Shown here: in pieces, positions 31,228 to 37,823 of the stretch
Layout of the letters: each line of letters begins with the position of its first letter
How positions within the stretch are numbered: the stretch's first letter is position 1
NCBI GenBank assembly: GCA_944383455.1
Contig: CALWPP010000005.1
Span: 60,480-124,479, forward strand
Direction of reading: 5' to 3'
Origin: an uncultured Peptostreptococcaceae bacterium
GTDB lineage: Bacteria; Bacillota; Clostridia; Peptostreptococcales; Peptostreptococcaceae
Length of the DNA: 64,000 bases
The notes under the pieces: model-generated
The model's input: only the letters and a program-made list of their open reading frames with translations
Told to the model about the DNA's origin: nothing
Database searches by the model: none
Translations under genes and position numbers: made by a program

Positions 31228-31977
31228 ATGAAAAAAATAGCTATTTATGGAAAGGGTGGTATAGGTAAATCTACTACAACTTCAAATTTATCTGCATCAC
31301 TTTCTGTTTTAGGTTATAAAGTTATGCAAATTGGTTGTGACCCGAAAGCAGATTCAACAAAAAATTTAATGAATGGAAAGTTTATTCCAACTGTTCTTGA
31401 TGTTATGAACCAAAAAGGAGATGACATAAAACTTAACGATATAGTTTTTGAAGGATATAATGGAGTTTTATGTGTTGAAGCAGGAGGACCAACTCCAGGG
31501 GTTGGGTGTGCAGGAAGAGGGATAATATCTGCATTTGAAAAGCTCGAAGAACTAAAAGCATTTGATGTATATAAGCCAGATATTGTTATATATGATGTTT
31601 TAGGAGATGTTGTTTGTGGGGGATTTTCTATGCCAATTAGAAATGGATATGCAAATGATGTTTATATAGTAACTTCTGGTGAAATGATGTCTATGTATGC
31701 AGCAAGTAATATATCAACTGCTATTAATCAATTTAAATCAAGAGGATATGCGTCTTTAAAAGGGCTTATATTAAATGCTAAAAATGTAGAAGATGAAAAA
31801 GATTTGGTTACAAATTTAGCTAAAGAAATTAATTCAGAAATATTTCACTATATACCAAGAGATAAGATTGTACAAATTTCTGAAAATGAGGGAAAAACTG
31901 TAATAGAAAAAGATAGGGATTGTGATATGGCAAAAATATATATAGAACTTGCTGAAAAAATAATAAATGAAGGTTGA
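31228..31977 (+). CDS. Nitrogenase-like iron protein (NifH/BchL family)
   Basis: A 249-aa ATP-dependent reductase subunit. The P-loop GKGGIGKST is at residues 8-16. GCDPKADST (switch I) follows, and the two [4Fe-4S] ligand cysteines are C94 in GVGCAGRG and C130 in DVVCGGF, matching Cys97/Cys132 of Azotobacter NifH. I start at the ATG at 31228 behind TTAGGAG rather than the upstream ATG at 31174. The protein would pass electrons to the two component-1-like subunits encoded downstream. No nifB, nifE/N or cofactor genes are present, so this is not a nitrogen-fixing system; a BchL/CfbC-like role on a tetrapyrrole is more likely. Confidence 0.93.
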   Translation: MKKIAIYGKGGIGKSTTTSNLSASLSVLGYKVMQIGCDPKADSTKNLMNGKFIPTVLDVMNQKGDDIKLNDIVFEGYNGVLCVEAGGPTPGVGCAGRGIISAFEKLEELKAFDVYKPDIVIYDVLGDVVCGGFSMPIRNGYANDVYIVTSGEMMSMYAASNISTAINQFKSRGYASLKGLILNAKNVEDEKDLVTNLAKEINSEIFHYIPRDKIVQISENEGKTVIEKDRDCDMAKIYIELAEKIINEG

Positions 31978-31993
31978 TTTGGAGGGAATATTT

Positions 31994-32917
31994 ATGAAAT
32001 TTAAAAAATTATGTTCAATGTTTTTATTATCAGCTTTAGTTTTAACAGGGTGCAATAAATCTCAAGACACTTCAACTGGTGTTAAGGGAGAAAGTAGCAC
32101 TAATACTTCACAAGAACAAGAAGTAAAACAACAAGATATAAAAGTTGTAGCAGCAACAGTATCTGGAACGCAAGTACTTGATAAATTAGATGCAAATGTT
32201 GTTGGAGTACCAACTACTAAGCTAGAATTACCACAACAGTATAAAGGTTTGCCAGAGGTTGGTCAGTCTATGAGTCCTGATTTGGAAATAGTAGCATCTT
32301 TAGAGCCTGATTTATTTGTGATGGATAATATGTTTAAGGAAAATGTTGAAGAAAGTATGAAAGATTATGATATAAATACTTTTTTCCTAGACACTAGTAC
32401 ATATTCAGCATACGTTGAAGATATTAAAGAACTGGGAGAAGAACTAAACAAACAAGAACAAGCACAAAAGTTAGTTGATGAATTAAAGGAAGTTGAAAAT
32501 AGTGTAAATGAGCTTAAAAAAGATAAAGATGTAAGTGTTGCAATAATATTTGGTGGTGGAGAAAACTTTATGCTAGCAACTGAAACTTCTTATTTAGGTG
32601 ATTTAGTAAAAACTGTTGGAGCAACAAATATAACTTCAAGCTTAAATACTGATGTAGAGTCTCCATATATACAATTTAGCTTAGAACAAATACTAAACGA
32701 AAACCCTGATTATATACTAAGATTTGCACACGGTAATATAGAAGAAACTAAAAAAGCATTTGATGATGCATTTGATAAAAATCCAGCTTATAAAGAACTT
32801 GATGCAGTAAAAAATAATAAAGTATTTGACCTAGATCCAAGTATATTTAATGTTTCTGCAAATTTACAAGTAAAAGATGCAATAACTAAACTTGGAGAAA
32901 TATTATACGGTAATTAG
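31994..32917 (+). CDS. Heme-type ABC transporter substrate-binding lipoprotein (IsdE-like)
   Basis: A 307-aa lipoprotein with signal peptide and lipobox LTGC (Cys20), then a class III periplasmic-binding-protein fold. It resembles Staphylococcus aureus IsdE, as I recall that sequence, in VVGVPTTKLELPQQYKGLPEVGQSMSPDLE and in RFAHGN. IsdE coordinates heme with a methionine in the first segment and a histidine in the second; both are present here as M93 and H246. I start at ATG 31994 after TGGAGGG; an earlier ATG at 31967 would overlap the NifH-like gene and spoil the signal peptide. Heme is the best-supported ligand; cobalamin or a siderophore is possible. Confidence 0.85.
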   Translation: MKFKKLCSMFLLSALVLTGCNKSQDTSTGVKGESSTNTSQEQEVKQQDIKVVAATVSGTQVLDKLDANVVGVPTTKLELPQQYKGLPEVGQSMSPDLEIVASLEPDLFVMDNMFKENVEESMKDYDINTFFLDTSTYSAYVEDIKELGEELNKQEQAQKLVDELKEVENSVNELKKDKDVSVAIIFGGGENFMLATETSYLGDLVKTVGATNITSSLNTDVESPYIQFSLEQILNENPDYILRFAHGNIEETKKAFDDAFDKNPAYKELDAVKNNKVFDLDPSIFNVSANLQVKDAITKLGEILYGN

Positions 32918-32919
32918 TT

Positions 32920-33903
32920 ATGAAGTTTGATAAGAAGTATTTGATAATATTTTTAGCAAGTGTAATATTATTATTTTTATTAGTATTACTATCAACAGTT
33001 GGAAGTGTAAATCTAAGCTTTAGTGAGATTGTTAGTGGGCTAATAAATAACGACAATAAATTAGTGACTACAATAGTTTATAAAATGAGGCTACCAAGAA
33101 ATGTACTTGCTATGCTTGTTGGTGCTAACTTAGCAGTATCTGGAATATTACTTCAATCTGTTATGAAAAATCCTTTAGCAGACCCTGGAATAACTGGTGT
33201 TTCAACAGGTGCAAGTGTTTTTGCAATAGTAATATTACTTATTGCTCCGAGTTATACTAGTAGCCTTCCAATATTTGCGTTTTTTGGAGGAATGATAGCG
33301 TGTATTTTAGTGTTTATGATGGCTTGGAAAAATAATGGTATAAGTCCAGGAAGAATAGTTTTATCTGGTGTTGCAATAAATACTATATTAGGAGGAATTA
33401 TTTCATTTTTATCAACACTTTATAGTGATAGAATACAAAGTGCTATGCTTTGGCTAAATGGAAGTTTAGCAACTAAAACTTGGGCTGATGTTAATATGTT
33501 ATTTATCTACTCTATAATAGGTCTTATAAGTTCATTTTTCCTAATAAGAAGTGCAAATATATTGCAACTTGGGGAAGACTCTGCAAAAAACTTAGGTGTA
33601 AATGTAAATTTAACCAGGCTTTTAATATCAGGTGTTGCAGTATTTTTAGCAGCAACTGCAACTTCAGTTGTTGGAATTATTAGTTTTGTTGGTCTTATAG
33701 TTCCACATATTGCAAGAATGATTATGGGAAGTGATTATAAATACACAATACCCTTTAGTATGGTACTTGGAAGTATAGTATTACTTATTGCAGATACATT
33801 AGGAAGAACAGTAGGAGGAGCAATAGAAATTCCAGTTGGAGTTATTATGTCTATTGTTGGAGGACCATTTTTCTTATATTTATTAAGAACGAGAGGTAAT
33901 TAA
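32920..33903 (+). CDS. FecCD-family ABC transporter permease
   Basis: A 327-aa polytopic membrane protein with about nine to ten helices. Family motifs are MRLPRNVLAMLVGANLAVSGILLQSVMKNPLADPGITGVSTGA, ILSGVAINT-like VLSGVAINTILGG, and VGIISFVGLIVPHIARMI, which forms the ATPase-coupling region. It belongs with BtuC/FhuB/IsdF permeases for heme, cobalamin and siderophores. Its start is 2 nt after the binding-protein stop and the ATPase begins 3 nt after its own stop. Confidence 0.95.
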   Translation: MKFDKKYLIIFLASVILLFLLVLLSTVGSVNLSFSEIVSGLINNDNKLVTTIVYKMRLPRNVLAMLVGANLAVSGILLQSVMKNPLADPGITGVSTGASVFAIVILLIAPSYTSSLPIFAFFGGMIACILVFMMAWKNNGISPGRIVLSGVAINTILGGIISFLSTLYSDRIQSAMLWLNGSLATKTWADVNMLFIYSIIGLISSFFLIRSANILQLGEDSAKNLGVNVNLTRLLISGVAVFLAATATSVVGIISFVGLIVPHIARMIMGSDYKYTIPFSMVLGSIVLLIADTLGRTVGGAIEIPVGVIMSIVGGPFFLYLLRTRGN

Positions 33904-37175: not shown

Positions 37176-37230
37176 ATTTATATTATATAAGCATTGTGAT
37201 AGTTAGATTTGTATATTGAAAAGATTAGTG

Positions 37231-37252
37231 TTTTGAAATTATAATTTCAAAA
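37231..37252. promoter_or_regulatory. 22-bp perfect palindrome upstream of the HugZ-like gene
   Basis: Each half is TTTTGAAATTA, meeting at the centre without a spacer. No T run follows, so an operator is more likely than a terminator. The core resembles Fur/PerR-type half-sites (TGAAATTA versus TGATAAT) without matching either consensus fully. Confidence 0.5.
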
Positions 37253-37361
37253 TTTAAAAAGCTATATATAGTATTTTCAGTATTTTTAATGGATAAACTA
37301 GCACAATAGATATTATATATAAAAATATTACAAATAACTTAATTTTATAAGGAGTTTATAT

Positions 37362-37823
37362 ATGGATAATTTACTAAATAATCAAAAAAGTTTAATCATA
37401 AGTTCTTTAAATGAGCAAAAAGAAGCATCAATTAGTTATGCACCATTTGTTATGTTAGGAGGTAATATTTATATTTATATAAGTAAAACAGCACCTCACT
37501 ACAATAATCTATCAAACAACAAAGATTGTGCAGTTATGATTATAGAAGACGAAAAAGAGAGCAAAACTATATTTGCAAGAGCTAGAGTTTCTTTTAACTG
37601 TGAAGCTAGAAAATTAGAAAGTGATACAGAAAAAATATTTGAAAAGTTTGATGAGGTACACAATAAAGAAATGATGATGGTACTTAAAAATATGGACTTT
37701 GATATCTTTAAACTTTCTATAAAAAATGGAAGACTTGTTAAAGGATTTGGTCAAGCATTTGATGTTTTAACAAATGGAGATGAATTTAAATTAGTTCAAG
37801 TTGTTGGAGAAGGACATAAATAA
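37362..37823 (+). CDS. HugZ/HutZ-family heme utilisation protein
   Basis: A 153-aa split-barrel flavin-reductase-like protein. The HugZ pattern is visible in order: SLNEQKEASISYAPFVMLGGNIYIYISKTAPHYNNLSNN near the N-terminus, FARARVSFNCEARKL in the middle, and FKLSIKNGRLVKGFGQAFDV near the end. The C-terminus GEGHK carries a histidine (H152) where HugZ proteins have their heme-ligand loop. Family members bind and in several cases degrade heme. It follows the nitrogenase-like operon after a 186-nt gap with a palindrome, and has an AAGGAG RBS. Oxygen-dependent heme degradation would be limited in an anaerobe, so binding or transfer is also possible. Confidence 0.85.
   Translation: MDNLLNNQKSLIISSLNEQKEASISYAPFVMLGGNIYIYISKTAPHYNNLSNNKDCAVMIIEDEKESKTIFARARVSFNCEARKLESDTEKIFEKFDEVHNKEMMMVLKNMDFDIFKLSIKNGRLVKGFGQAFDVLTNGDEFKLVQVVGEGHK

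Follow-up and report, generated by a model that had tools for sequence, protein, structure and literature searches.

The 64,000-nucleotide stretch analyzed here (the window; contig CALWPP010000005.1, positions 60,480 to 124,479, from an uncultured Peptostreptococcaceae bacterium) carries an operon in which the genes of a nitrogenase-like enzyme, designated nflH, nflD, and nflK (the NFL genes), are combined with those of a heme-type importer. Judged from ligand residues, gene order, and conserved neighbors, the encoded enzyme NflHDK is probably an ATP-driven, oxygen-free reductase that acts on imported heme or a porphyrin derived from it and whose activity would lead to the release of iron. The initial annotation had described an operon of a NifH-like Fe protein, an IsdE-like lipoprotein, a FecCD permease, an ATPase, and two NifD/K-like subunits, followed by a HugZ-family gene, and this composition agreed with the open reading frames (ORFs) and the Pfam matches. 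The locus comprises the following features.

31228..31977, plus strand: nflH, NifH-like Fe protein (Pfam Fer4_NifH, 332 bits; P-loop GKGGIGKST)
31994..32917, plus strand: IsdE-family lipoprotein (Pfam Peripla_BP_2, 145.6 bits)
32920..33903, plus strand: FecCD-family permease (Pfam FecCD, 316.8 bits)
33907..34692, plus strand: ATP-binding cassette (ABC) transporter ATPase of the FecE/heme type (Pfam ABC_tran, 119.9 bits)
34704..35980, plus strand: nflD, nitrogenase component 1-like, with three cluster cysteines (Pfam Oxidored_nitro, 159.6 bits)
35967..37175, plus strand: nflK, nitrogenase component 1-like, without the three cluster cysteines (Pfam Oxidored_nitro, 210.3 bits)
37362..37823, plus strand: HugZ/HutZ-family split-barrel protein, conserved His close to the C-terminus (Pfam PNPOx/CREG barrel)
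31143..31157, plus strand: Fur-box-like site upstream of nflH (12/14 matches to a 7-1-7 consensus)
30377..31114, minus strand: AraC-family regulator, divergent from nflH (ORF and Pfam)

The importer, the Fe protein, the two component 1 subunits, and the HugZ-family protein are encoded in the same direction with short spacings: nflH ends at 31977 and the lipoprotein gene starts at 31994, the ATPase gene ends at 34692 and nflD starts at 34704, and nflK overlaps the end of nflD by 14 bases. The HugZ-family gene lies 186 bases past nflK, and a scan meant to reveal a separate promoter or terminator between the two genes gave no excess of promoter-like sites (55 against a shuffle mean of 60) and two terminator-like sites against 1.2. 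NflH has what we take to be both cluster-cysteine motifs of Fe proteins. In the genome of the window (1.64 Mb in 27 contigs, 88.6% complete), the only two PF00148 matches were nflD and nflK.

The DPOR and CfbCD branches of the nitrogenase superfamily reduce tetrapyrroles, and the cluster ligands of NflDK were compared with this background. NflD has three cluster cysteines and NflK has none, where the P-cluster of nitrogenase requires six; the Cys column of the FeMo-cofactor is occupied by Asp in the NflD and Arg in the NflK of the window, and the His column holds no His. NifB (TIGR01290; E ≤ 1e-20) was found in none of 71 genomes of the family and in 3 of 14 controls, a search that a very divergent partner could escape, and Pfam identified no radical SAM protein among the 20 neighboring proteins scanned. 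Because of the three cysteines confined to NflD, the missing FeMo-cofactor ligands, and the lack of NifB, NflHDK looks like a [4Fe-4S] reductase of the DPOR kind and not like a nitrogenase. Among the NCBIfam models, NflH scored best with CfbC (356 bits, cut-off 402); its scores were 350.1 bits with nifH (cut-off 394.35) and 212.7 bits with BchL (cut-off 345.15), and the structural model of NflK was nearest to subunit B of DPOR. The NflH sequences grouped together in a tree (82/83 support), apart from NifH and from a NifB-linked Treponema NifH, a weak result in which BchX forms a long branch. For nflD, the Pfam, NCBIfam, and homolog searches used a shorter ORF starting at 34841.

Named genomes were scanned with an alignment of 23 NflK sequences and two short peptide patterns, which yielded at least 21 NFL loci (this was no census), all carrying clostridial names; loci and genomes are designated below by L and G numbers. 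Since an IsdE-family protein accompanies the NFL genes in 18 of these 21 loci, the association with the importer is not due to chance. The order nflH, binding protein, permease, ATPase, nflD, nflK was found in 15 of the 21 (with a broken nflK in L019), while L015 and L023 contain all six genes in a different order, the contig of L006 begins within the binding-protein gene, L014 and L022 are fragments, and L021 contains NflHDK without binding protein or permease. At L021 (Vallitalea), an ABC-type ATPase and a SufBD-core gene follow NflHDK (11378-13022), as if near Fe-S assembly. Within the family, NflK was matched at E ≤ 1e-30 in 20 of the 71 genomes, 16 of which had matches above 400 bits and are termed core; the other four (G020-G022, G062) were pooled with the 55 non-core genomes. 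The operon nflK is in pieces in G013 and G025, and the best match of G025 is a second, lone nflK-like gene. Such lone second NflK-like genes, without adjoining nflH or nflD, were seen in one genus of the family (L030 7019-8257, L031 7011-8219, L032 6968-8236, L033 3-1370). A class-wide draw gave NflK matches in 40 of 391 genomes, 10 of them above 200 bits and the rest below 170 bits, a range in which other NFL and Nif proteins can be expected. The homolog searches listed 120 of 337 matches for NflD and 120 of 215 in the other search, and among the matches listed, NflD or NflK homologs were named from Romboutsia, Turicibacter, Paraclostridium, Terrisporobacter, and Clostridioides. The AraC-family gene is the divergent upstream neighbor in 15 other core loci.

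The binding protein suggests that the importer brings in heme. The lipoprotein of the window scored 279.0 bits with the NCBIfam IsdE model, below the curated cut-off of 298.65, the binding protein of L015 scored 357.7 bits, above it, and IsdE was the sole NCBIfam match at E ≤ 1e-25 for all ten binding proteins examined. In an alignment to 2q8p, Met93 and His246 of the lipoprotein fall on the ligand positions of IsdE, whose heme ligands we take to be Met and His. The His was kept in 24/24 core-clade binding proteins and the Met in 18 of the 21 that cover the site (Phe in L007, L009, and L016), and the His was absent from all eight binding proteins of the sister clades (six outer-clade, two mid-clade). 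IsdE was present in 15/16 core family genomes, each time less than 4 kb from nflK by coordinates, and above cut-off in 17 of the 55 others, where the inspected copies (L050-L054) stand without NFL genes. A corrinoid importer was rejected as a candidate, with 34.2 bits for the BtuF model versus 279 for IsdE.

Further heme-handling families accompany the operon. The HugZ-family protein of the window scored 138.3 bits against a curated cut-off of 240 and covers only positions 88-241 of the 243 in the profile; all six aligned proteins of this kind have a His within their last four residues, presumably the heme-binding residue of HugZ/HutZ. HugZ was found in 10/16 core and 2/55 other family genomes, and either HugZ or a PF12641 flavodoxin in 16/16 and 11/55, respectively. 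Flavodoxins of a single family occur at eight loci of relatives, namely the core loci L010, L011, L012, L017, L018, and L045 and the mid-clade loci L038 and L043, and none occurs in the window. Three of them were compared with the PDB, and the best match was 8g64, the heme-bound FldH with His134 as iron ligand, which for two was the sole match at E ≤ 0.001. In L010 and L045, direct alignment places a His opposite His134 (chain numbering beginning at the first Met); the match of L038 ends before it, and the column is His in 7/7 aligned flavodoxins. In Hathewaya massiliensis (L015/L044, one locus), the importer genes are preceded by two NEAT proteins, of which one carries a Shr-like hemoglobin-interacting domain and the other a Gram-positive anchor; between the importer genes and those of NflHDK sits a sortase gene. 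The genes downstream in the L023 island look, by eye, like those of the stand-alone Isd loci L051-L053.

Upstream regions were scored at 14 positions of the Fur consensus with a threshold of ≥12/14. Sites at or above this threshold were found in 18 of 23 core regions (L021, which has no importer, counted as core), four of them perfect, and in 0/11 mid- and outer-clade loci. The score of the window site was reached by 4% of dinucleotide shuffles, and many relatives score 13-14/14. The conserved linkage with heme genes on which the initial annotation depended was thus recovered in relatives through the heme-ligand His, the NEAT and sortase proteins, the FldH-type flavodoxins, HugZ, and the Fur-box-like sites, and its interpretation is supported.

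Starting from this gene set, the following route can be proposed. Iron shortage would turn on the operon through Fur, and heme would enter via the IsdE-family ABC importer, in Hathewaya likely handed over by the surface NEAT proteins. HugZ, or elsewhere the FldH-type flavodoxin, may hold cytoplasmic heme and pass it onward, comparable to HmuF/HmuW of Fusobacterium. NflH would hydrolyze ATP and supply electrons of low potential to a [4Fe-4S] cluster, whose ligands would be Cys32, Cys57, and Cys115 of NflD and possibly a non-cysteine residue of NflK (Asp12 or a neighbor). Asp12 is nearly invariant, being replaced by Cys in L018 and by Glu in L023; since the position of the BchB cluster-ligand Asp is Thr in NflK, the fourth ligand is a guess. 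From the cluster, as in DPOR, the electrons are predicted to pass straight to a pocket-bound tetrapyrrole and to reduce double bonds of its ring, and the saturated macrocycle would bind iron less well or open to cleavage, so that Fe(II) leaves.

A number of observations weigh against NflHDK being a DPOR-like heme reductase. Besides the Thr in NflK, the nearest NCBIfam model was the nitrogenase alpha chain for NflD (74.6 bits) and NifE for NflK (103.8 bits), with BchB behind (65.2 and 91.0 bits); profile searches of the PDB ranked NifE/NifD over BchB, Foldseek E-values placed nitrogenase chains first, and for the NflD model DPOR-B was only slightly ahead of AnfK (31.4 vs 29.6). The curated DPOR cut-offs were missed by BchN (TIGR01279; ≤35.2 bits vs 419.95) and BchB (≤91.0 vs 490.35). 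The initial annotation had proposed a tree of the subunits, which would speak against it if they grouped within a clade whose known substrate is unrelated. NflD and NflK formed their own clades, and neither lay within such a clade; this part stood, in a tree that leaves out CfbD, Isr, and Nfa and whose long branches do not settle the deep order. The described gene order and short spacings also held, but not the nflD ORF as listed: nflD begins at 34704, where the ATG runs into a stop after six codons and reading continues in another frame, so that a frameshift falls in the first seven codons and the open ORF spans 34841-35980. The frameshift may be natural or an assembly error; among the matches listed, the intact relative P0122 has 425 aa at 99% identity, and relatives of NflD mostly have 423-429 aa. 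Two other genomes have a broken or fragmented nflK, at L019 (Paraclostridium benzoelyticum, 4838-6060) and at L057/L058 (G013), possibly through operon decay in some lineages or assembly faults.

The partners and neighbors add further points of this kind. Many core loci are without HugZ, and NEAT and sortase genes occur with NFL in one species only. In the genus of C. difficile, the PF12641 flavodoxins lie elsewhere in the genome and also occur in its two members without NFL; they therefore say little. Fur-like matches were weaker in L004, L005, and L008 (11/14), and no Fur-like site was found in L013 or upstream of isdE in L015 (both 9/14). Of the binding proteins at the 11 mid- and outer-clade loci, those of L036 and L039 are enterobactin/dicitrate-like, and those of L037, L024, L038, L043, and L040 are of other kinds that lack the heme His; at L034, L035, L041, and L042, no importer was found within the fetched stretch. 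Because these loci pair with other importers or none, the wider NFL family is not heme-specific. The sister-clade NflHDK operons L036 (7071-15177), L039 (908-8322), and L037 (4963-11116) contain FecCD permeases, the binding protein of L037 being unassigned, and NflK of L036 and L039 has His at the BchB-Asp position. Outside the clostridia, the Treponema saccharophilum plasmid pTS1 (L024 8917-15213) carries NflHDK with FecBCD-type genes; its NflH is 63% identical to that of the window over 220 residues, with 23% for NflD and 21% for NflK. Other chelates may be handled likewise in these clades. A broader proposal, to which we give somewhat less than even credence, is that ring saturation continues until iron drops out and that the sister clades strip other FecBCD-imported chelates, so that together they would form a broad class of nitrogenase-like enzymes reducing chelates.

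The same loci support the strongest rival explanation, that NflHDK is a general low-potential reductase acting on the metal or the ligand of whichever metal chelates the linked importer takes up (heme here, siderophores or others in the sister clades) and not necessarily specific for tetrapyrroles. The operons of L036 and L039, each with two FecCD permeases, and the plasmid locus of Treponema are what it would lead one to expect, and the absence of Fur-like sites from L036, L039, and L037 fits a broader role. We nevertheless consider it unlikely, given that reduction of the heme iron by itself does not release iron, that neither the heme His nor Fur-like sites were seen outside the core clade, and that four outer loci show no importer in the fetched stretch. 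Formation of a new reduced-ring cofactor (chlorin or isobacteriochlorin) from imported heme, with no breakdown, would follow the precedent of DPOR, COR, and CfbCD, which all make cofactors (PMC11423573, PMC12552129); the Fur-like control and the NEAT, HugZ, and FldH-type partners suggest iron supply instead and make this rival distinctly improbable.

Two further explanations assign the genes to the nitrogenase side of the superfamily. Dos Santos et al. 2012 (PMC3464626, section 11) suggested for clostridial ABC-linked nitrogenase-like genes that metal import is coupled to building a metal cofactor on the enzyme; for NflDK, this is very unlikely in view of the heme-type binding protein, the missing FeMo-cofactor ligands, and the 0/71 result for NifB. 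Least probable is a nitrogenase reducing N2 or other small molecules: the nifH score of NflH and the proximity of the subunits to NifE/NifD by sequence would suit it, but the curated Nif cut-offs were missed and only three of the six P-cluster Cys remain, and nitrogen fixation in particular was rejected on the cluster and FeMo-cofactor ligands together with the 0/71 result for NifB.

For an oxygen-free heme reductase of the proposed kind, the closest relatives in design can be named, each with clear differences. DPOR (BchLNB/ChlLNB) likewise combines an Fe protein with two component 1 subunits, three Cys in one and a non-Cys partner, and no FeMo-cofactor ligands, while NflHDK has its own tree clades, lacks the BchB Asp, scores far under the curated cut-offs, and sits beside a heme-type importer instead of chlorophyll genes. 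CfbCD of F430 synthesis resembles it in the Fe protein; CfbD, however, forms a homodimer and has no NifK homolog as partner (PMC11423573), whereas NflD and NflK are two different subunits, which scored 36.8 and 43.0 bits with CfbD (cut-off 268.4). The Group IV systems MarBHDK and IsrBHDK are also nitrogenase-like HDK sets outside the nitrogenases, Isr near importer genes, and differ in having their own NifB-like radical SAM enzyme and, for Mar, a P-cluster and an [Fe8S9C] cluster (PMC11423573, PMC12552129). The hmu locus of Fusobacterium nucleatum (HmuTRUV, HmuW, HmuF, HugZ) places the same importer, HugZ, and heme flavodoxin families beside an anaerobic heme degrader; HmuF, a paralog of FldH, passes heme to the heme-degrading HmuW (PMC10404700). 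There, the degrader is a radical SAM enzyme, whereas in the NFL loci NflHDK sits with the importer. ChuW/HutW was rejected as heme degrader of the family, with no match over cut-off in 71 genomes; sub-cut-off matches of 206-222 bits in 28 of them, including that of the window, are probably HemW-like. HmuS of Bacteroides also serves oxygen-free heme iron use, through NADH-dependent de-chelation to intact protoporphyrin with no Fe protein (PMC12583661). The Isd systems (IsdE, NEAT, sortase, IsdG) share the IsdE-family binding protein and, in Hathewaya, NEAT and sortase, and differ in that NFL genes sit in the locus here. Finally, Dos Santos et al. 2012 described clostridial NifE-like (three Cys) and NifN-like (none) genes beside NifH and an ABC ATPase, which, judged by their description, are probably the same family; section 11 of that paper (PMC3464626) suggests cofactor assembly and draws no heme link. 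The gene arrangement was thus noticed in 2012, and the open-licence searches showed no published link to heme.

Among the open-licence papers listed by searches that paired nitrogenase with heme, importer, or related terms, no title or abstract opening described such an enzyme acting in the import or breakdown of heme. We know of no settled route for oxygen-free extraction of heme iron in most clostridia. Known oxygen-free routes are the radical SAM enzymes ChuW/HutW/HmuW and the de-chelatase HmuS (PMC10404700, PMC12583661). If the proposed function is true, a further anaerobic route of heme use, built on a nitrogenase scaffold, would be added, and the nitrogenase superfamily would gain a catabolic, iron-acquiring branch. 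It would also caution against reading nitrogen fixation from the presence of nifH-like genes in gut genomes.

Elsewhere in the window, a DUF3793 gene (29762-30358, minus strand) lies just downstream of the AraC-family regulator, and Rfam identified a T-box leader at 7405-7624 (127.7 bits).

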